Source of the DNA: a virus
Virus record (IMG/VR): IMGVR_UViG_3300032334_001083
Coordinates: 1 to 48,875 of that record
Reading direction: 5' to 3' (one strand)
Length of the DNA stretch: 48,875 nucleotides
Shown: positions 2,673 to 48,827 of the stretch, one piece after another
How the letters are laid out: the number at the start of each line of letters is the position of its first letter
How positions within the stretch are numbered: position 1 is the stretch's first letter
Program-made: the position numbers and the translations under genes
Notes under the pieces: generated by a model
What the model saw: only the letters and a program-made list of their open reading frames with translations
The model's database searches: none
What the model was told of the DNA's origin: nothing

Positions 2673-3998
2673 TTAGAAAATATCGTCATCACCCCAAACG
2701 TCAGACGTTGGCTCTTCCTTTAAAAAAGCTGGGATGTTCTCCTCTTCTTCTTCTGGTGCCTCATTACCATAAGACTCCCAGCCATCTCTTCTACGTCTGG
2801 CGTTTAATTCCAGCTTTTTCAGACTGGGAAAGTAATTTTCAATGATGCGGTAAAAGTCGTCAGGCTTAACCGAATGATCTGCAACTGGCGCCGATATAAT
2901 TGATGGGAACTGTGATCCTGGCGCTGGAGCTGGGATATTCCCCTTGGTTCCAACCAATAGCAATTCATGCTGATTGCGGAACCAATAGCCCGTACCAATT
3001 CTGTCCTTCACCCATGTAACATGGCTCTTATATTCAAATCCCCATGCTTCCATAACTTTAAGAGCCTGTGGAAGCATTGGTACAGTAGCCCATAAAAACA
3101 ATACGCAGTTTTTGTCGGTAATTCCGCTAACTGGCCATGAGCAAATATCTTCGACGCTCTGACACGGATAGTGGTTATCAGCTGATCGATCCATTCCCTT
3201 TTCACTGTAGGTTTGAAACGACCAAGCAGGATCTGCCAAAACTACCCCAAACTTACCTTGAGGGAAGGACATCTGCTTCTCGCCCAGGATGCGCTCTTTC
3301 TCTTCCCTCTCAATCTTCTTAAGCTCACCTCTAGCCGATACCTTTTCCCCAGCAAGAGCCCTCGCCAACAGACCCCTCTGCATATCCTCTGGGAGGCTTG
3401 CCAGTGCGTCTAATTCAACGCCCGTATCCAATGAGGTTCCGATGGTCGAAGCTATCTCAGGGATGTTCTTTACCCGCCTAGCGTCCCTTTCAATAGCTGT
3501 TGAGGAACGGTTTGTTTCTTTGGCTACGGCATGGGATGAATTTGAGTGTATACGGTTCTCTAAATTAATACCAACTTGGGATTTATTTCCCTCTGACTCA
3601 TCCGCAGGGCGTCCAGACTTCAACCGATAGCGAATCTCTGCAATCTCTTTCAGCCTAGCGTAGTGGATGGATTGTTGAGCTGCAGTCAGTTCATTCCGAA
3701 TCAAGTTTTCGCAAAGCTCAACCTGTTCAGCGTCTAATGCGTCTACGCCTTCTAGGATTGTAGCGTTAATATTATCCCACTTAAGACGCTTTGCTGCTTC
3801 TAATCTGTGGCGGCCAGCAATGACCCAGTAGGTATTGTGGCTATCGTCTCGTCGTACGGTAATTGGATTTATCAGGCCAATTTCGGCCATAGAATTTGCA
3901 AGTCTTTCAACAAGATCTGGACGTTTTGGAATATGTCTTTCTTCGCTTACGTTAATAGCAATTAAACCTATCTTTTCTACATTATGTAAAATGCTCAT
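2673..3998 (-). CDS. ParB-like domain fused to MT-A70 adenine methyltransferase
   Basis: 441 residues with two domains. Residues 1-110 form a ParB/Srx-type domain (GRHRLEAAK at 62-70, then CENLIRNELTAAQQ), followed by a linker to about 240. The C-terminal half is an MT-A70 N6-adenine methyltransferase with catalytic motif DPAW at 256-259 (the common form is DPPW), the NHYPCQS segment and the ELLLVGTKGN strand. The fusion is known from many phages and integrative elements; it methylates adenine in DNA, perhaps to protect phage DNA from restriction. Start taken at the ATG after CGGAG, seven bases away, instead of the ATG two codons upstream. It ends close to the GcrA-like gene in convergent orientation. 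Confidence 0.9.
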   Translation of the reverse strand: MSILHNVEKIGLIAINVSEERHIPKRPDLVERLANSMAEIGLINPITVRRDDSHNTYWVIAGRHRLEAAKRLKWDNINATILEGVDALDAEQVELCENLIRNELTAAQQSIHYARLKEIAEIRYRLKSGRPADESEGNKSQVGINLENRIHSNSSHAVAKETNRSSTAIERDARRVKNIPEIASTIGTSLDTGVELDALASLPEDMQRGLLARALAGEKVSARGELKKIEREEKERILGEKQMSFPQGKFGVVLADPAWSFQTYSEKGMDRSADNHYPCQSVEDICSWPVSGITDKNCVLFLWATVPMLPQALKVMEAWGFEYKSHVTWVKDRIGTGYWFRNQHELLLVGTKGNIPAPAPGSQFPSIISAPVADHSVKPDDFYRIIENYFPSLKKLELNARRRRDGWESYGNEAPEEEEENIPAFLKEEPTSDVWGDDDIF

Positions 3999-4063
3999 AT
4001 GCATCTCCGTATTTCGGGGACGGGTTGCATAGCAGGACTCAAGTATAATGGGAAGGGCGGGAA

Positions 4064-4097
4064 AAGGCAGCTAGGAATTAAATCCTTACGCTGCCTT
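4064..4097. other. Strong imperfect hairpin upstream of the methyltransferase
   Basis: AAGGCAGC pairs perfectly with GCTGCCTT, extended by TAGGA/TCCTTA around a six-base loop. On the minus strand it is followed by CCTTTTCCC, so it could attenuate or terminate transcription entering the methyltransferase gene. No gene lies in 4005-4190. Confidence 0.45.
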
Positions 4098-4190
4098 GAC
4101 ACCCCATATATGCCTGAGATAGGCTTAAAACATTCGCGGTGTTACGAGCACCCGAAGCCATGAGCCACCAACCGAAACTTGGTAACTGCT

Positions 4191-4436
4191 ATGAAAAATA
4201 CAGCCGATAAGGCTAAAAATCAACATCCCGTAGATCATAAATCTGCAAATGAGCTGACGATGAAAATCGTTGCCCAGCTTCGCATGGCTGTACGCTATGC
4301 TGAGCTGGCGCAGGATTATGAGGAACTGTTTGATAACTTTGGTTTTGACCGAAGCGTTGAGCAGTTCATTCAATACGCTAAGGATTCCTCCGACACATTA
4401 AAAAAGCTGCGTAAGGCACGGGGGGTGACTGACTGA
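4191..4436 (+). CDS. Hypothetical protein, 81 aa
   Basis: Not recognised. A mostly helical, charged protein: residues 20-50 (ELTMKIVAQLRMAVRYAELA) suggest an amphipathic helix, and the tail is basic (LKKLRKARG). The ATG at 4191 is preferred over an in-frame TTG 12 bases upstream, but neither has a good ribosome site. Its stop lies just before the structured RNA region. Confidence 0.45.
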   Translation: MKNTADKAKNQHPVDHKSANELTMKIVAQLRMAVRYAELAQDYEELFDNFGFDRSVEQFIQYAKDSSDTLKKLRKARGVTD

Positions 4437-4440
4437 GAAG

Positions 4441-4896
4441 CCCTTTAGTCCGAAAGGACATTCTGGTTGGACAATCCATTAAACCGTTGGTGAGGTACGG
4501 CAGGGGCCAGAATTAAGCGTTACTGTTGGGAGTCGGAACGCAACGCAGCGGCAGCACAAGAGCTGGAAGCCGTAAGTCCGATCTGGGGTGGTAGGTGCCC
4601 CTAAAATAGTCGCCAGCCAACCTATAGGCCCTTACATGACCTATGGGCGGCGTATGTGGAAACCTTAGACGCAAGATACCGTTAAAGTCGGGGCGTCATT
4701 TGGTTCGTAATGAGCATATGTCGATAAGTGACAGCTTCCCTAGTTTTGCCAGGGAGCATGTCACAGTATTAGCTACCGATAGGTAGGTAATACGATACAG
4801 GTAACTGGTAACATACACGGGTAATTAATAACTAACTTACAATATGGCTGGCATGGGGTCAGTCGTAACAGGATAACTGCGTTCTGGAGACTGATT
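4441..4896 (+). ncRNA. Candidate large structured noncoding RNA
   Basis: No convincing gene lies in these 456 bases, but complementary arms follow one another almost without a break: GTCC-GAAA-GGAC (4448-4459); a multiloop closed by ATTCTGG/CCAGAAT (4460-4466/4507-4513) enclosing TGGA/TCCA and CCGT/ACGG; GCGTT/AACGC (4517/4537); CGGC..CAGC/GCTG..GCCG (4549-4572); GGGG/CCCC (4585/4598); CCTATAGG/CCTATGGG (4621/4640); GTGACA/TGTCAC with TCCCT/AGGGA (4728-4764); GTATTA-CTACC-GATA-GGTAG-TAATAC (4766-4793); TCAGTC/GACTGA (4859/4889). Two loops are GNRA tetraloops. The last helix reaches the ribosome site of the next gene, so it may be a free RNA or a giant leader. The strand is inferred from the flanking genes. 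Confidence 0.6.
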
Positions 4897-5193
4897 ATGA
4901 ACTGGCAACAGATGTCTTTAAATGGAATATATGCTAAGAAACCCAACAATAAAAAAAGCAAATCTCTCTCTAAAACAGCTAAAAGAACAACTGATGAAAA
5001 AACAAAACCTTACTTATTTCGTAAGGGTTCTCATGTGATTCATTATTGGAATACAGAAAAAGAAGATACTTCCTGCAAATTATGGTCTACAGGTGGCATT
5101 AGAAATAAAAGCAGATTTTATTGGTCTGACACGACAGGCGGTCGTTCAATATGCCAAATGTGTCAAACAAATAAAGATAAACAAAATGATTAG
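4897..5193 (+). CDS. Hypothetical basic protein with C-terminal CxxC
   Basis: 98 residues. The first 45 are very rich in Lys and likely disordered. The rest (HVIHYWNTEKEDTSCKLWST...ICQMC) looks like a small Trp-rich fold with Cys at about 61 and a CQMC pair near the end, which may bind zinc. GGAG lies seven bases before the ATG, in the 3' arm region of the last helix of the upstream structured RNA, so its translation could depend on that fold. No family recognised. Confidence 0.6.
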   Translation: MNWQQMSLNGIYAKKPNNKKSKSLSKTAKRTTDEKTKPYLFRKGSHVIHYWNTEKEDTSCKLWSTGGIRNKSRFYWSDTTGGRSICQMCQTNKDKQND

Positions 5194-5230
5194 TTATTGA
5201 CATTATCCAAAATGTATAATAGATGGAGCT

Positions 5231-5710
5231 ATGCAAGAATATACGCTTAACGATAGAGAGGTAGCTGCTGCCAAAAGAGTTGGCGCATTGCGCCGACAGC
5301 AAATCATAGAACTTGGCATATTAGGAAGATATGGAATTGAAGGAACAGAGCAGGAATTGGTTAAGTGGGATATAGATAGCACTGGCGGTGAGATTGCTGC
5401 CGCAAGGATATTGAACAAACCATTGAATCCTGCGTTCAAGAATTTTGCTGGTGCGGACATTGGTAAAAATATAGATGTAAAAACATCCCGCGTTCACCGT
5501 TATAGACTTATTGTTCGTCCAGGTGATGTGGATGGGGAAGTAGATAAATCAAATTGGTGGTATGTCCACGTAACTGGCTCATTACCAACATATAAAGTTT
5601 GGGGAGCCATAAAAGTTTCCGATGCCAAAAAAGTAGGTAGTTGGGAAAACCCTAAAAATCGAGGATATGCTTGGTTTGTTAGGCATGAATACCTAACAAA
5701 ACATTTCTAA
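5231..5710 (+). CDS. PD-(D/E)XK-superfamily nuclease-like protein
   Basis: 159 residues. After a helical N-terminus there is the pattern GGEIAAARILN (E54), then GADIGKNIDVKTS with D76, D82 and K84, matching the E...D...(D/E)xK core of restriction-endonuclease-like folds. A following strand-rich region (WWYVHVTG, KVWGAIKVSD) is typical of phage nucleases of this type. It probably cleaves DNA; whether it acts in host genome degradation, recombination or defence is unknown. Located in the DNA-metabolism cluster, upstream of an HTH protein and the helicase. Confidence 0.7.
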   Translation: MQEYTLNDREVAAAKRVGALRRQQIIELGILGRYGIEGTEQELVKWDIDSTGGEIAAARILNKPLNPAFKNFAGADIGKNIDVKTSRVHRYRLIVRPGDVDGEVDKSNWWYVHVTGSLPTYKVWGAIKVSDAKKVGSWENPKNRGYAWFVRHEYLTKHF

Positions 5711-40659: not shown

Positions 40660-43600
40660 ATGGCAATTAACAACAAAAACCTTGGTAGCATCTCAGGAAG
40701 CCCAACGGTTGATAATTTGAATCAGCCATCTGTGCCTCCTATTGAGAATTCTCCGAGTTTATTTTCTGTTCCTACTGTTCCTGCTGCAGGCTGGCATGTC
40801 AGTTTAACCGATCCAATTATGTATGGGATCGTTACGATTAATGGTTCACCGTGGACTCCTGCGGTAAGCCCTGGTCTTGCAAATACTGTTCTTACTACGG
40901 ATGGAAGCGGAAGTGTCGCGTGGCTCCCAGCGGTTCAATCGCTTGACTTTGGAACAACTGGCCTCCTTCCGACACCGGCTGCAACGGGTAATATCTCTGT
41001 TTCGGGTGTTCTTAATCTTGCAAATGGTGGTACTGGGCTTAACTCTGTTGGCGTTTCTGGGACTGCATTAGTCTCTAATGGCACGACAATTTCGTATTCA
41101 TACCCTGCTCGTGCGAATAATTTATCTGGTGGCGATCCAAACGGGATTCCTTATCAGACGGCAGCGAATGCAACATCTTTTGTTACTGCTGGCGTAACGG
41201 GACAGATTCTGAAGGCAAATACTGGCGCTGCCCCGACATGGGGCGCAGGCACAGCGACGATTGGCACGACGCCAATTACACTTGGCACGACGATATCATC
41301 GCTTGAGAACCTTACAACAGTTTCGCTGACGCAAGATCCGATTGATGGTCATGATGCAGCAACCAAGAGTTACGTTGATAGCCGAACGGGCGCATTGCGT
41401 AACTTGGGCAATGCCAAAGTTGCTACAACGGCAAACATTACACGCAATGGCCCACAGACGATTGACACCATTCCTGTGGTGGCTGGGGATATTGTTCTTG
41501 TTCGTGCGCAGGAAACCGCTTCTCAAAACGGTTTGTATGTCGTTCAGGCGGGAGCTTGGACATATCCAACGTATGCAAATACGTGGGCTGATTATGTAAA
41601 TGGTCTTGTGTTTGTTCTGCAAGGTTCGCAGTATGGCAATACAAGCTGGACACAGACAGAAGGCCCTGGTGGAACGCTTGGCGTAACGGATCAAAGCTGG
41701 GCTCAGATTTCTGCCGCTCTTGATTATACGCCTGGTGTTGGCATTTCGATTGCTGGTTCGCTGATTTCAAATACGGGTGTTCTTTCATTTAGTGGCGGAA
41801 CGACGGGTTTAGCGCCATCAGTTGCAACGACTGGCGCAATTACGCTTTCTGGAACACTTGCTCCTTCAAACGGCGGCACGGGTATTACGTCATTAGGAAC
41901 TGGCGTTCAGACGGCATTGGGGACTGCACCAAATACTGCAAATGGCTTTGTTACATTTAGCGGTGCTTTAGGAACACCTAGTTCTGGCATTTTGACGAAT
42001 GCCACGGGGCTTCCGCTTACGACTGGCGTTACAGGGGTTCTTCCGATTGCTAATGGCGGAACGGGTAACAACAACGCAAATGATGCGCTTAATGCGCTTC
42101 TTCCAGTTCAGACAGGTAATCCCGGCCACTTCTTAATGACGAATGGTTCCAATACGTCTTGGGAACAAAACCCATATGGAACGGTTACGAGCGTTGGTTT
42201 TTCAACAGGAACGACTGGGTTTTCGGTTACATCTGACACAACAAATCCGATTACGACGAGCGGAACATTTACGCTTTCTGGCACACTTGCTCCATCAAAT
42301 GGTGGAACTGGCATAACATCGCTTGGAACAGGCGTTGATACAGCGCTCGGTATTAGTGTCGGAACCGCTGGTAGTTTCGTTGTAAATGGTGGTGTTCTCG
42401 GAACTCCGTCTAGCGGAACATTGTCCAGCTGCACAGGACTCTCTCTTACGACAGGCGTGACTGGAACTCTTCCAGTAGCTAACGGCGGAACGGGGATAAC
42501 ATCGCTTGGAACAGGCGTTCAGACGGCGCTCGGTAATGCGACAAATGCTGCTAATGGGTTTGTAACTTTCTCTGGTGCTCTTGGCACTCCAGTGTCTGGC
42601 AATTTCTCAACAGGCACATTTACTTGGCCGACGTTTAATCAGAATACAACAGGTACGGCGGACAATGTGACGGGCATTGTCGCTGCGGCGAATGGCGGAA
42701 CGGGTCAGTCTTCTTATACGGCTGGTGACTTGCTTTATGCTTCTGGCACAACGGCAATTTCAAAATTACCGATTGGCTTGACGAATTACTTCTTAAAGTC
42801 AGTAGGCGGCGTTCCTGTTTGGGCTGCTGGACCTACTGGTTACGCAGATGCAATAGCACCGCGAAATACAGCTTATGGCTCTGGCGCAGGAAATGTCCCG
42901 CCTTCTGGCACGGACAATGTGTTTGTTGGGTATAATGCTGGGTTACTGGTGACTAGTGGTGCCAATTTGGTGCTTATTGGCTCTGGTGCAGGTGACGCAA
43001 TTACGAGTGGCGGCTCAAGTGCGATTGCTATTGGTAAAGATGCACTAGGTGTTGCAACCACAGGCAGCGCAAATAACATCGCTATTGGCGCTAGTGCGAT
43101 TGGCTCTGCAGCAGGCGGCTCAAATAACGTCGCAATCGGCGGTAACGCGGGTCAGCCAATTACCAGTGGAACTCAGAATACATTAGTTGGTGGTGCTTCT
43201 GGTGGAGCATTAACAACGGGCAGTGATAACGTCGCTATAGGCTACCAGACATTAGACGCCTGCAATACGGGCGCTCAGAATACTGCTGTTGGCAAAAGCG
43301 CTCTCGGCGCTTCTACTACAGCCAGCAATAACGTAGCTGTTGGCTATAATGCAGGTTTGGCGCTGACTACTGGCGACTTTAATACTGTTGTTGGTTCAAA
43401 TGCATTTGCGGCAGCAGGCAGCTTCTCGTCCAATACTGCAGTAGGCCATGAAGCGATGACGCTTGGTGGTTCGCAGTTCAATACGGCAGTTGGCCGTCAA
43501 TCAATGGCTGGCGCTGCTGGCGGCGTTGGAAATACGGCAGTTGGCTATCAGGCTGGTTATCGTTTCTCTGGTAACTATAATACCGCAGTTGGTTATGGTG

Positions 43601-44454
43601 CAGGACAGACAGCTGGAAATACTTATCTAACAGCGGTTGGCTATAACGCAGCAGCTTATAATACGGCTGGTAGCGGAACATTTGTTGGCGCTAATGCGGG
43701 TATTAATCTTACATCAGGCGTTGGAAATACCGCTCTTGGTTATAATGCCTTAAATGGTGGTGGCGGATCTACTGCAGCTAACAACACAGCTGTCGGCAAC
43801 AGTGCTCTGTTAAGCGTATCAAATGCTGCTCGAAATACGGGTGTTGGCGTCAATGCTGGAACATTAGTTTCAACAGGAACAAACAACACAGTTCTTGGTT
43901 ATAACGCTGGCAGCACGATCACGACAGGTGCCAATAATACTTTAATTGGAACTTATACTGGAACGGCAGCGCTTTCTGGCGTTTGCGCTCTTTCTGACGG
44001 CGCTGGCAACATTCGTCTTTATACGAATAGTTCGGGCGCTGTTTCGGTTGACGGAACTAATTTCGGAACCACAGGCCAAGTCCTAACATCGAATGGTTCT
44101 GGTGCGGCTCCAACGTGGCAGGGAACTGCCATGCAGACGGCATCGGCAACCACCACCTCAACTGCGCTTACAACAATCGCAACAATTGCAATTGGTTCTG
44201 GTATTTCTGTGAGCGGGTTTTTCTCTGCTGCCTGTGCAACAGATGGTAAGTATTACAGCTACCAAGTAAGTTTTGTTGCAACTAGCTCAACTGTTAACCA
44301 AAGCGCAATCGGAAGCGTTGCTAGAATTGGCGGCTCTCCTGATGCTTCGGCTGTTTCCGCCACGATTAGCGGCTCTAATCTTTTGATACAAGTCACAGCA
44401 AACAGCGCCAGTTCAACAAAATCGACGTATGTTTATAACGTGGTTAATTTTTAA
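40660..44454 (+). CDS. Long tail-fibre protein 1, 1264 aa
   Basis: An N-terminal module (SISGSPTVDNL; AGWHVSLTDPIMYG) shared with fibre 2 probably attaches to the tail. Residues about 250-350 are a tail-fibre repeat (GPQTIDTIPVVAGDIVLVRA ... AGAWTYPTY). Residues 370-720 hold repeats of the form LAPSNGGTGITSLGTGVQTA. Residues about 737-1110 are NTAVGYxAG repeats like the left-handed beta-roll of YadA-type trimeric adhesins. The C-terminus is a common fibre end domain. A trimeric receptor-binding fibre is expected. The stop overlaps the start of the next gene (TAATG). Confidence 0.88.
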   Translation: MAINNKNLGSISGSPTVDNLNQPSVPPIENSPSLFSVPTVPAAGWHVSLTDPIMYGIVTINGSPWTPAVSPGLANTVLTTDGSGSVAWLPAVQSLDFGTTGLLPTPAATGNISVSGVLNLANGGTGLNSVGVSGTALVSNGTTISYSYPARANNLSGGDPNGIPYQTAANATSFVTAGVTGQILKANTGAAPTWGAGTATIGTTPITLGTTISSLENLTTVSLTQDPIDGHDAATKSYVDSRTGALRNLGNAKVATTANITRNGPQTIDTIPVVAGDIVLVRAQETASQNGLYVVQAGAWTYPTYANTWADYVNGLVFVLQGSQYGNTSWTQTEGPGGTLGVTDQSWAQISAALDYTPGVGISIAGSLISNTGVLSFSGGTTGLAPSVATTGAITLSGTLAPSNGGTGITSLGTGVQTALGTAPNTANGFVTFSGALGTPSSGILTNATGLPLTTGVTGVLPIANGGTGNNNANDALNALLPVQTGNPGHFLMTNGSNTSWEQNPYGTVTSVGFSTGTTGFSVTSDTTNPITTSGTFTLSGTLAPSNGGTGITSLGTGVDTALGISVGTAGSFVVNGGVLGTPSSGTLSSCTGLSLTTGVTGTLPVANGGTGITSLGTGVQTALGNATNAANGFVTFSGALGTPVSGNFSTGTFTWPTFNQNTTGTADNVTGIVAAANGGTGQSSYTAGDLLYASGTTAISKLPIGLTNYFLKSVGGVPVWAAGPTGYADAIAPRNTAYGSGAGNVPPSGTDNVFVGYNAGLLVTSGANLVLIGSGAGDAITSGGSSAIAIGKDALGVATTGSANNIAIGASAIGSAAGGSNNVAIGGNAGQPITSGTQNTLVGGASGGALTTGSDNVAIGYQTLDACNTGAQNTAVGKSALGASTTASNNVAVGYNAGLALTTGDFNTVVGSNAFAAAGSFSSNTAVGHEAMTLGGSQFNTAVGRQSMAGAAGGVGNTAVGYQAGYRFSGNYNTAVGYGAGQTAGNTYLTAVGYNAAAYNTAGSGTFVGANAGINLTSGVGNTALGYNALNGGGGSTAANNTAVGNSALLSVSNAARNTGVGVNAGTLVSTGTNNTVLGYNAGSTITTGANNTLIGTYTGTAALSGVCALSDGAGNIRLYTNSSGAVSVDGTNFGTTGQVLTSNGSGAAPTWQGTAMQTASATTTSTALTTIATIAIGSGISVSGFFSAACATDGKYYSYQVSFVATSSTVNQSAIGSVARIGGSPDASAVSATISGSNLLIQVTANSASSTKSTYVYNVVNF

Positions 44455-47400
44455 TGGACAATAACAAAGGCACAGGCAGGCTTTCTGGAAGCCCTACAGT
44501 GGATGCACTGGGGAACAGAAGCATTGCTGCGTCCTATTCTATGATAGGCGCTGCGCCTTTGTTATTGAATTCTATTCCTGGTTATCCAGATGCTGGCTGG
44601 CATGTTACTCTGACAGACCCAATTATTTGGGGAAGCATCACTTTAAACGGTATTGTTTATAATTTCCCAACGGCTGCGGGGAATATTGGTGATGTATTAA
44701 CTGTTACTGGGCTTGGGACGACGGCTTGGGAACCAGCTGTTCACACACTTAATTTTGGAACAACTGGCCTTACACCTACGACGGCTTCAAGTAATAATAT
44801 TACGGTTGGTGGTATTTTAAATATTGCAAATGGCGGCACGGGCGCGACAACGGCGACTGCGGCAATAAATGCGTTGATGCCAAGTCAGTCTGGACAGAAC
44901 GGAAGGTTTTTAACCACAGACGGTTCTGCTATTTCTTGGGCTGCAAACCCTCTTGGAACCGTAACATCGGTTAATGTTTTAGGTGGGTCAACGGGGCTTA
45001 CTACAAGCGGTGGGCCTGTTACAACAGCTGGTGTTATAACTCTTGGCGGTTTGTTAAATGTCGCTTCTGGCGGCACTGGCCTGACAGCTGTTGGTCCGAA
45101 TGGCACAACAATTGTTTCAAACGGAACAACTTTATCCTATAGCTACCCAAATCAAGCCACGAACCTTTCTGGCGGCAATCCTTGGAATGTTGTTTATCAG
45201 TCAGCGACCAACGCTACAGCATTTGTTCCTGCTGGTATTACAGGCCAAGTTCTTTCAGCTAATACTGGCGCTGCTCCTTCTTGGGGATCTGGAACTGTAA
45301 CAATTGGCACGACGCCAATTACGCTTGGATCGACGGCTTTATCACTTGCGGGGGTTACTGCGGTAACTCTTACGCAAGATCCATCAAGTGCTCTTGATGC
45401 GGCGACAAGACAGTATGTAGATTCAAGAACAGGATCTCTTAATAACTTAGGAAGTGTTGTTGCTGCGACTACGGGCAACATTTCTCTTTCTGGATTGCAG
45501 GTAATTGACGGTGTTAACGTCGTTGCAGGCAATTCCGTTTTAGTTAAAAACCAAACTCTTGCTCAGCAAGATGGTGTTTACATCGCATCTGCTGGTGCGT
45601 GGTCATATGCGACTTATGCCAATACATGGTCTGATTATGTTGGCGCTTTAGTATTTGTCGCGGGTGGATCGCAATCTGGTTCTTCGTGGACGCAGACGGT
45701 AGGCCCAGGCGGCACGATTACCGTCACCCCAATGAGTTGGGCGCAGATTGGTGCTGCGATTGCTTATACTGGCGGCGCTGGAATTAATGTTACTGGCGGC
45801 ACAATTAGCAATACGGGCGTCTTGTCGTGGTCTGGTGGAACGACTGGTTTAACGCCTTCGATTGCAACAACTGGTGCAATTACGCTTGGTGGGACGCTTC
45901 AGATTGCGAATGGTGGAACTGGCCTTACAGCATTAGGAACAGGCGTTCAGACTGCACTTGGAAATAATGTCAACGGTGCAAGCGGCTTAGTTACTTTTTC
46001 TGGCAATCTTGGAACGCCGACAGCTGGTGTTTTGACTTTTGCAACTGGCTTGCCGCTGACAACTGGCGTTACAGGGACGCTGCCGATTGCTAATGGTGGC
46101 ACTGGTCAGATAACTGCTAATGCTGCATTTAATGCTCTTGCGCCTTCTCAAACCACTGCTAACGGACAGTTTTTAACGTCTAACGGAACGAACACAAGTT
46201 GGGCATCTCTTCCAGCTACATCTATTACTGTCAATTCTACTGCTATTGTTGGTGGGTCAAATCGTAGTATAGTATTTGATAATGCTGGGACTTTTGGGGA
46301 GGCAACATTTATAACCACCAATGGTGGTTCAACACTCACTTTAGGCGATTCTATTAGCGGTGTTAGCGGTCAACTTATATTGGCTACATCTGCATTAAAC
46401 AATGTCACTTTAGAAGCATCATCTTCTACCTCTGCATCATATAATCTTACGTTGCCGACAGGAACTGGATCAAACGGACAGTTTCTTACAACCGATGGTA
46501 CTGGCGTTACGAGTTGGACGACTGTTCCATCTTCTATGGTTTATCCGAGTGCTGGTATTGCTGTTTCGACAGGTTCTGCTTGGAATACATCAATTACCCT
46601 TGGCACAGGAGTTTCTACGGCTCTTGGGGTTAATGTTGGAACATCGGGTGCGTTTGTTGTAAACGGCGGCGCTCTCGGAACGCCGTCAAGTGGAACTCTA
46701 TCTGGATGCACAGGGCTTCCTCTTGCAACAGGTGTAAGCGGAACGCTTGCAATAGCAAATGGCGGCACTGGACAGACATCCGCTAATGCCGCGTTTAATG
46801 CACTGGCCCCGTCGCAATCAGGCGCGAATACTGAAGTTTTAACATCAGATGGAACAAACACATCGTTTGCACCTCTGGTTCCGTCTTCTACAACGGGCAA
46901 TATTCCTGTTGCGACGGCTACGGGATCTTTGTCTGATTCCGCTAAATATTTTTCTGATTCCATAACAACAAATTTAAATATCTGGTCTGCTCTTCAAACG
47001 CAGACCGCGATTACAAATGGCTTGTTGAATACGCCAACGCTACCATCTGTTACTCTGGCATCTACTGCAAACCTTTCTTTGACAGGTGCGGCTACTGTCG
47101 ATGGAACAGCAGTTGTCACGGGCAATACGGTTCTTGTTAAAAACCAGACAACAAACAGTCAAAACGGTGTTTATCGTGCGGTGACAACTGGTGCTTGGGT
47201 AAGGCAGGCATATGTTGCAGGCGCTTGGGCTGACGTTACGACGCAGGTTACATACGGTGATTTGGCTGAGAACGGCGGCGTCATCAACGTATTGAATGGA
47301 ACTGCAAATAAAAATCTTCAGTTCCAGATCTACTTTCAAAATCCATCTGCGACATTAGCTGCTGGAACGACAGTTTATATTACTGGTCTGACAAAGATTC

Positions 47401-48827
47401 CTGCGGCAAGTGTGTCAAATCGTTTTGTTGACGTTGGTATTGGCAATAACACAAACAATAACGGTTCGTCAGCTTTCCCATATGCGACGATTACTCAAGC
47501 TCTTATTGGGATGCAGTTCCCAGCAACGATCAATGTTGCAGCAAATCCAGCAGCTGAATCTTCATCAATTACTTGGACAAGCAGCCAGTCGAATTGCTCT
47601 GTTCAAAGCTCAAACATTAACAATAACGGTGGCCAGAGCATTCTTTCTGGCGTGATGACATTTGCAACGGGCAACACCCGCGTTCACTTTACAGGAACAA
47701 CGCATAGCAGCGCCACGCCTTTTGTGTTCCAATCTGGGGCCGCTGGTCGTAATTATTTCCAGACAGTTACGATTTCTAATGCCGCAGCGTCTGATTGGCT
47801 TGGATTGAATGCAGGCGTGACCAATTTCATCTCTTTGGATGATATTGAGTTTACGACTCCGATTGTAAATGCAATTAACCTTCCTGCGTTTTCAAGCGCT
47901 TTTACAATTTATCACTATAACCAGAATAATGGATTCTTACGTTACACAGGGACAGGCGCTGCGAACACGACGATTGATATTCGTTCTGGCTGCGTCGATG
48001 GATATATCTGGATTCCATCCACTTATCTTGGAACGATAAATTGGAATGGTGTAGAGTTTGGTTATCCTGTTGGATCAACAGCCTTTACGTCTGGAATTAT
48101 TACAAACCAGACTGATCTGACGACGATTCTGAACTGGACGACTGATGGTAGTTATGATGGCTGGTATGCCATTAACTTTGCTGGGCCTTCTGTTTTTGCT
48201 CAAGGCGCTATTTTTGGCAAGGTAACAATTGCTGGTGTAACGACATATACCTTCTGGGGGCGCACACTTGCGCAGGCTCCTGCAACGATTTCTACAAAGT
48301 CGGGCGCAGTTTATAGTAAAGTAACAAGTGGCTGGATTGTTTTGGCAACGGTTGCCACAGGTTCATGGGCAAATCTTTACGACACAAGCGTTTCTCAAAC
48401 GGCGGCTGCGATTAACACTGCCTATGCGATGACGCTTAATGGTATTGACCCTGATAGTCGGGGCTTCACAGTTGTTTCGGGATCTCGGATTACGGCTGCT
48501 TATGCGGGTATTTATACGTTCGCGCCATCAATTCAGGTTAGAAATAATAACAATTCGATCCACGAATTTAATATGTGGTTCCGTAAAAATGGCGTAAACT
48601 TAGCAGATAGCAACAGCAGATTTTCAATTACTGCCTCTCACGGCGGGGTTGATGGTTTTGCTGTTCCAGCTGTTGTGTTCTCCTTCAAGTTGGCTGCTGG
48701 CGATTACATTGAGGTTATGTGGTCAACAAGTAATACAAATGTTGAGATCTATACAATTCCAGCGACAGCCCCAGCCCCACGAGCGCCATGTATTATTGTT
48801 TCGATTACGCAAGCTGCTGTGATATAG
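44454..48827 (+). CDS. Long tail-fibre protein 2, 1457 aa
   Basis: A tandem paralogue of fibre 1: the N-terminal about 480 residues align throughout (GSPTVDALGN; GWHVTLTDPIIWGSI; QYVDSRTGSLNNLG). The VLVKNQT...NGVY...GAW module occurs twice, near 325-440 and 862-960. GGTG-type repeats fill the middle. Residues about 1010-1290 are a beta-helix-like stretch. The last about 145 residues (ITAAYAGIYTFAPSIQVRNN; FNMWFRKNGVNLADSNSRF; LAAGDYIEVMWSTSNTNVEI) form a C1q/TNF-like trimeric head, absent from fibre 1. Two different tips suggest two receptors or an accessory fibre. Translationally coupled to fibre 1. Confidence 0.88.
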   Translation: MDNNKGTGRLSGSPTVDALGNRSIAASYSMIGAAPLLLNSIPGYPDAGWHVTLTDPIIWGSITLNGIVYNFPTAAGNIGDVLTVTGLGTTAWEPAVHTLNFGTTGLTPTTASSNNITVGGILNIANGGTGATTATAAINALMPSQSGQNGRFLTTDGSAISWAANPLGTVTSVNVLGGSTGLTTSGGPVTTAGVITLGGLLNVASGGTGLTAVGPNGTTIVSNGTTLSYSYPNQATNLSGGNPWNVVYQSATNATAFVPAGITGQVLSANTGAAPSWGSGTVTIGTTPITLGSTALSLAGVTAVTLTQDPSSALDAATRQYVDSRTGSLNNLGSVVAATTGNISLSGLQVIDGVNVVAGNSVLVKNQTLAQQDGVYIASAGAWSYATYANTWSDYVGALVFVAGGSQSGSSWTQTVGPGGTITVTPMSWAQIGAAIAYTGGAGINVTGGTISNTGVLSWSGGTTGLTPSIATTGAITLGGTLQIANGGTGLTALGTGVQTALGNNVNGASGLVTFSGNLGTPTAGVLTFATGLPLTTGVTGTLPIANGGTGQITANAAFNALAPSQTTANGQFLTSNGTNTSWASLPATSITVNSTAIVGGSNRSIVFDNAGTFGEATFITTNGGSTLTLGDSISGVSGQLILATSALNNVTLEASSSTSASYNLTLPTGTGSNGQFLTTDGTGVTSWTTVPSSMVYPSAGIAVSTGSAWNTSITLGTGVSTALGVNVGTSGAFVVNGGALGTPSSGTLSGCTGLPLATGVSGTLAIANGGTGQTSANAAFNALAPSQSGANTEVLTSDGTNTSFAPLVPSSTTGNIPVATATGSLSDSAKYFSDSITTNLNIWSALQTQTAITNGLLNTPTLPSVTLASTANLSLTGAATVDGTAVVTGNTVLVKNQTTNSQNGVYRAVTTGAWVRQAYVAGAWADVTTQVTYGDLAENGGVINVLNGTANKNLQFQIYFQNPSATLAAGTTVYITGLTKIPAASVSNRFVDVGIGNNTNNNGSSAFPYATITQALIGMQFPATINVAANPAAESSSITWTSSQSNCSVQSSNINNNGGQSILSGVMTFATGNTRVHFTGTTHSSATPFVFQSGAAGRNYFQTVTISNAAASDWLGLNAGVTNFISLDDIEFTTPIVNAINLPAFSSAFTIYHYNQNNGFLRYTGTGAANTTIDIRSGCVDGYIWIPSTYLGTINWNGVEFGYPVGSTAFTSGIITNQTDLTTILNWTTDGSYDGWYAINFAGPSVFAQGAIFGKVTIAGVTTYTFWGRTLAQAPATISTKSGAVYSKVTSGWIVLATVATGSWANLYDTSVSQTAAAINTAYAMTLNGIDPDSRGFTVVSGSRITAAYAGIYTFAPSIQVRNNNNSIHEFNMWFRKNGVNLADSNSRFSITASHGGVDGFAVPAVVFSFKLAAGDYIEVMWSTSNTNVEIYTIPATAPAPRAPCIIVSITQAAVI

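Follow-up and report, generated by a model that had tools for sequence, protein, structure and literature searches.

The window analysed here, a 48,875-base virus record from IMG/VR, has a phage gene set with a phrog_38 terminase, a portal and a major head protein. It also encodes a ParB/MT-A70 fusion protein and a GcrA-type regulator, the latter of which suggests an alphaproteobacterial host. Within a rightward early operon, a promoter-like motif and a leader are followed by a small gene (ORF1), a gap, a second small gene (ORF2), a phrog_18407 gene, an HNH gene and a phrog_16 helicase gene. The features flanking the gap are as follows:

2673-4004, minus strand: divergent neighbour, a gene fusing a ParB N-terminal domain to an MT-A70 methyltransferase; conserved flank of the slot (69% identical in L090)
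4036-4049, plus strand: promoter-like GACTCAAGTATAAT, at the same position in L002 (GACTCGCGTATAAT) and in L090 (identical)
4050-4190, plus strand: structured leader of ORF1, z about -3.3 to -3.45 against shuffles
4191-4436, plus strand: ORF1, a real coding gene for a small helical protein, also strongly structured as RNA
4897-5193, plus strand: ORF2, 98 aa, without a family, by eye unrelated to the L002 gene at that position
5231-5710, plus strand: phrog_18407 gene, conserved downstream flank, present too in the L095 phage

Two relatives of this region were recovered, namely L002, reached via the ParB-MT-A70 protein (93% identical), and L090, the early region of contig G008, which was reached via its terminase. 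The order ParB-MT-A70, promoter-like motif, ORF1, gap and phrog_18407 gene is shared by the window, L002 and L090, and neither ORF1 nor phrog_18407 yielded relatives beyond L002 and L090 when used as bait. The fusion protein, a ParB N-terminal/MT-A70 adenine methyltransferase, is close to phrog_21315. The TATAAT and the position of 4036-4049 point to a putative promoter, and because GACTCAAGTATAAT occurs a second time in the G008 phage (L088 1506-1519), it may represent a phage-wide promoter type. In the leader, a hairpin at 4064-4097 has counterparts in L002 and L090 at the same place and of similar shape, with a different sequence.

ORF1 encodes 81 aa from its ATG, or 85 aa if a TTG at 4179 is used, and is 51% identical to its L002 and 61% to its L090 counterpart. 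Since the changes concentrate at third codon positions (56-60% different, vs 20-32% at second positions), we consider it truly coding, and its predicted structure consists of three helices (pLDDT 70). A cassette at about 4057-5185, made up of leader, ORF1, RNA and ORF2, was swapped between L002 and the window, the flanks being 87-91% identical; ORF2 is wholly different across this swapped cassette in two otherwise closely similar phages. As bait in IMG/VR, ORF2 retrieved no relatives, and structure prediction without an alignment gave it no confident fold.

The gap itself, 4437-4896, is bounded by the ORF1 stop (4436) and the ATG at 4897. A first-pass annotation had described it as lacking any convincing gene, and in the frames checked we likewise found neither an ORF with a family nor a conserved protein, nor any conserved protein frame across the segment; the gap is a real noncoding slot. 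Its G+C content is about 52% in the first part, compared to 32-42% in the downstream genes. Rfam returned no match in the gap at gathering level and no relevant one at E values up to 10, including for group I and group II introns, RNase P RNA and tmRNA (Rfam and ARAGORN models), and the GOLLD and ROOL covariance models were also without a match, so GOLLD, ROOL, introns and RNase P found no backing as identities. No tRNA was detected in the window, and we found no homologue of the window's own gap sequence. The plus strand of the region contained no terminator-like or internal promoter-like sites, which we count in favour of an RNA embedded in the operon.

Folding of the gap

The whole gap folds at -160.1 kcal/mol (z -3.6), a value reached by 0 of 100 dinucleotide shuffles, and the opposite strand comes close to it (z -3.1). 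Among the 105 consecutive 460-base blocks of this phage (mean z -1.4, SD 1.7) it ranks 6th, and its folding alone is hence weak evidence. The initial description of a densely structured RNA therefore stands in so far as the gap beats its shuffles, but the fold is not exceptional within the phage and the signal is confined to part of the segment:

4437-4611, plus strand: 5' part, with a GAAA hairpin (4448-4459) and the ATTCTGG/CCAGAAT multiloop; z -0.06, no signal beyond shuffles
4612-4852, plus strand: best-supported domain, multibranched; z -5.9, 0 of 100 shuffles as good, pairing entropy below all 100 shuffles
4860-4893, plus strand: last hairpin (4860-4864/4889-4893), pairing probability 1.0, covering the approach to the ORF2 ribosome site

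The first-pass annotation had also drawn about ten helices in series, which fared unevenly. The GAAA-capped hairpin is well predicted, with a probability of 0.95, and the final helix does reach the ribosome site of ORF2, whereas the multiloop closed by ATTCTGG/CCAGAAT (4460-4466/4507-4513) has an ensemble probability of 0.33 and is absent from the minimum-energy fold. The two hairpins that can be drawn inside it have probabilities of 0.28 and 0.02, and the GATA loop, described as a GNRA tetraloop, is not one, as it has T in the third position. The gap contains 23, 5 and 1 exactly complementary 6-, 7- and 8-mers, against 22.2, 5.6 and 1.3 in shuffles, and long-range helices of 7-8 bases were consequently dropped as evidence.

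Within the second half of the gap, which folds well, single-sequence folding predicts a good candidate domain at 4612-4852. It would be closed by helix 4612-4618/4846-4852 and carry arms at 4621-4647, about 4648-4722, 4728-4764 and 4766-4793, with main helices at pairing probabilities of 0.87-1.0 and weaker small hairpins. The z of -5.9 applies to boundaries picked after the fold was seen; in a scan of the whole record using 241-base windows and fewer shuffles, the same stretch came 9th of 312 windows at z -4.6. The strongest folding in that scan was over the ORF1 leader and ORF1 (4052-4372, with window starts at 4052-4212 and a lowest z of -7.6), which hold ranks 1, 3 and 4 of 312, and the second strongest window, 44372-44612, lies where two large ORFs (40660-44454 and 44454-48827) meet.

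RNA in the corresponding gap of related phages

The gaps of L002 and L090 have a motif in common, TGCGGTTAN{2,10}GGTAAATGNNNTCCACC, and a pattern scan for it over IMG/VR, which may leave out the window's own record, returned four contigs only, i.e. L002, L090, L094 and L095. The latter two, from a freshwater phage, carry one identical RNA, which in L095 sits between a phrog_16 helicase gene and an unrelated small gene. When the L095 and L090 cores were aligned by sequence only (180 columns), none of 37 proposed pairs was broken and 5 were changed on both sides, and in the outer helix P1 both sides had changed in 4 of 7 pairs. A covariance model built from these two sequences recovered the L002 RNA at the expected place (E 1.3e-6). 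Across the three distinct sequences that make up this sample, with L002 fitted to the model before counting, 98% of pair cells were kept and 13 of the 37 pairs were changed on both sides; because L002 was aligned by the model, its share of the pairing leans towards structure. This combination of pair conservation and double-sided change was reached by 0 of 500 shuffles, and pairing fell to 32-45% in controls where the partner was slid by 1-3 columns.

Rfam gave no credible match to the L002, L090 or L095 RNAs, at gathering level or at E values up to 10 (a group II intron fragment in L090, at E 9.5, is at chance level), and BLAST against phages and plasmids with either the window RNA or these RNAs as query returned zero matches. 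Taken together, the compensatory changes argue that the RNAs of L002, L090 and L094/L095 form a real structured RNA family, hereafter R1, which we consider previously undescribed as judged against Rfam 15. Across 385 alphaproteobacterial and 398 phylum-wide genomes, the R1 model gave weak matches only, none credible, with three inspected ones judged to be chance (one lies inside a coding gene), and the R3 model gave zero matches; as these genomes include no known positive, the searches are weak evidence of R1 absence. Three further model matches were likewise judged to be chance: one in L107, inside a ParB-MT-A70 gene, one in L012, and one at window positions 5134-5305, which extends across the beginning of the phrog_18407 gene.

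Every R1 RNA also contains an exact 10-11-base direct repeat, whose copies lie 63-65 bases apart, on either side of a C-run/G-run hairpin close to the 3' end. The copies are identical within one RNA and different between RNAs, namely TTTGCGTTTAT in L002 (3283 and 3220, minus strand), AACCGATTAAA in L090 (4471 and 4536) and ACCGAATATC in L095 (9346 and 9410), and each repeat occurs in 0-2 of 500 shuffles. The complements of these repeats revealed no consistent partner inside the RNAs or contigs. The pair offers a specific lead towards a partner, and one that can be tested.

The direct repeats of the R1 relatives, the ParB-domain gene beside the window's slot and an opposite strand that folds almost as well would also fit an element acting at the DNA level, such as an origin of replication or a target of the neighbouring ParB-like protein, with inverted repeats that mimic RNA hairpins. 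We regard this as very improbable. G-U pairs occur in the R1 helices and are exchanged there, which favours an RNA, since such pairs would not be tolerated in a DNA cruciform. The unpaired loops of R1 are conserved, and no ParB gene was recognised around the L095 copy, whose neighbour is a helicase gene.

Relation of the window's RNA to R1 and its possible role

The window shares several traits with R1 as found in L002 and L090: its RNA occupies the same slot between ORF1 and the next early gene, is of similar length, is noncoding, and fills the gap up to the start codon. This position is not strictly defining for R1, since the L095 copy sits elsewhere. There is, however, no detectable match by sequence or by model. 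Covariance models of the P2-P7 core (R1 and R3, filters off) found nothing credible in 4437-4896, and a model of the R1 5' half (P1 to P3, filters off) left it unmatched as well, although the latter has little power for distant members, as the true member L002 also fails it. Both the conserved R1 loop GGTAAATGnnnTCCACC and the exact 10-11-base repeat pair around a C/G hairpin are absent from the window's gap. Pairwise sequence alignment of the window RNA with R1 RNAs gave z 0.1-1.1 against shuffles, and alignment of folding profiles gave z -1.1 to 1.7, in a comparison where L002 against L095 reaches only z 0.5. A GCACAARAG motif shared by the window and R1, along with an AAGCG after the first junction, caught the eye but was dropped given these values (z 0.1-1.1 and at most 1.7). 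As all direct tests failed and their power is limited, we give equal odds to a far-diverged R1 member and to another RNA occupying that slot. The large noncoding RNA originally proposed for this locus is thus indirectly supported for the slot, which holds an R1 RNA in L002 and L090, but not for the window's own sequence, which matches no R1 model. Single-sequence folding cannot decide the window's case, and 4612-4852 is the part to probe.

The cassette exchange itself raises another reading, according to which R1 was lost or replaced in the window at that event, leaving a recombination-scarred spacer without RNA function in which the fold of 4612-4852 is fortuitous. A 5' half without folding signal and a rank of only 6th among 105 blocks, in a phage where many coding segments fold as well, are consistent with this. 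We nevertheless consider it unlikely: 4612-4852 beats all of its shuffles in both energy and pairing entropy, and because the slots of both relatives hold a putatively functional RNA, loss in the window would be a change and not the default.

For the slot as a whole, we favour a noncoding RNA within the early transcript that works as an RNA, probably in trans, an account to which we give about even chances of being right. Here, 4437-4896 would correspond to a noncoding slot in the early operon of related phages, filled by a structured RNA that shares its transcript with ORF1, starting from the putative promoter around 4036-4049. The R1 RNA would itself be the functional agent, either released from the polycistronic early transcript or working within it, and the window's slot would hold a far-diverged relative of R1 or a different RNA, with 4612-4852 as its most credible structure. 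We infer the single transcription unit, the action in trans, and the same job for the window's sequence. This reading is preferred over a leader for one gene because R1 keeps its loops and helices while its neighbours change, and the different genes around the L095 copy, downstream of the phrog_16 helicase, likewise count for an RNA in its own right. The shared gene order of the window, L002 and L090, the compensatory changes of R1 and the fold of 4612-4852 speak for it as well. The failure of the window to match the R1 models, the similarity tests and the repeat pair counts against it, as does the small size of R1, with three distinct sequences known, one of them (L002) fitted to the model.

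The main rival is a long cis-regulatory leader, governing how the next gene (in the window, ORF2 at 4897) is translated or transcribed. In each of the four cases the RNA takes up the entire gap and stops 8-18 bases short of the following start codon, which also fits cis control, and the window's last hairpin covers the approach to the ribosome site. Set against this, no two of the phages have the same downstream gene (the products being 98 aa, 123 aa, possibly a 34 aa peptide, and 71 aa) and none of these genes has a recognised family, the minimum-energy folds of the four RNAs show no common hiding of the ribosome site, and shuffles contain just as many perfect 7-base complements, so that we hold such a leader to be possible, if on the improbable side. 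Of comparable standing, and put forward tentatively, is an extension of the preferred own-right RNA in which R1 and the window RNA would be one fast-evolving, portable family associated with the early replication module and acting in trans, with the repeats as a recognition element. The repeat pair would then be re-invented in each phage and matched to something in the host or the phage.

Comparison with known RNAs

The closest parallels are GOLLD and ROOL, large structured noncoding RNAs of phages whose function is unknown (PMC12286853). The window and R1 RNAs resemble them as large structured noncoding RNAs in phage genomes, but are shorter (about 365-460 bases, against about 659 or over 800 for GOLLD and ROOL) and have no match in Rfam. 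GOLLD and ROOL are also often found near tRNA islands, whereas the window is without a tRNA and its RNA lies between early protein genes. R1 was recognised in the same manner as the candidate structured RNAs of comparative metagenomics, whose discovery relied on covariation within intergenic stretches of metagenomic contigs (PMC2864571, PMC8040213); the R1 and window RNAs differ in matching no Rfam 15 family. With its compensatory changes and changing neighbours, R1 would extend the short list of large phage RNAs without a known role.
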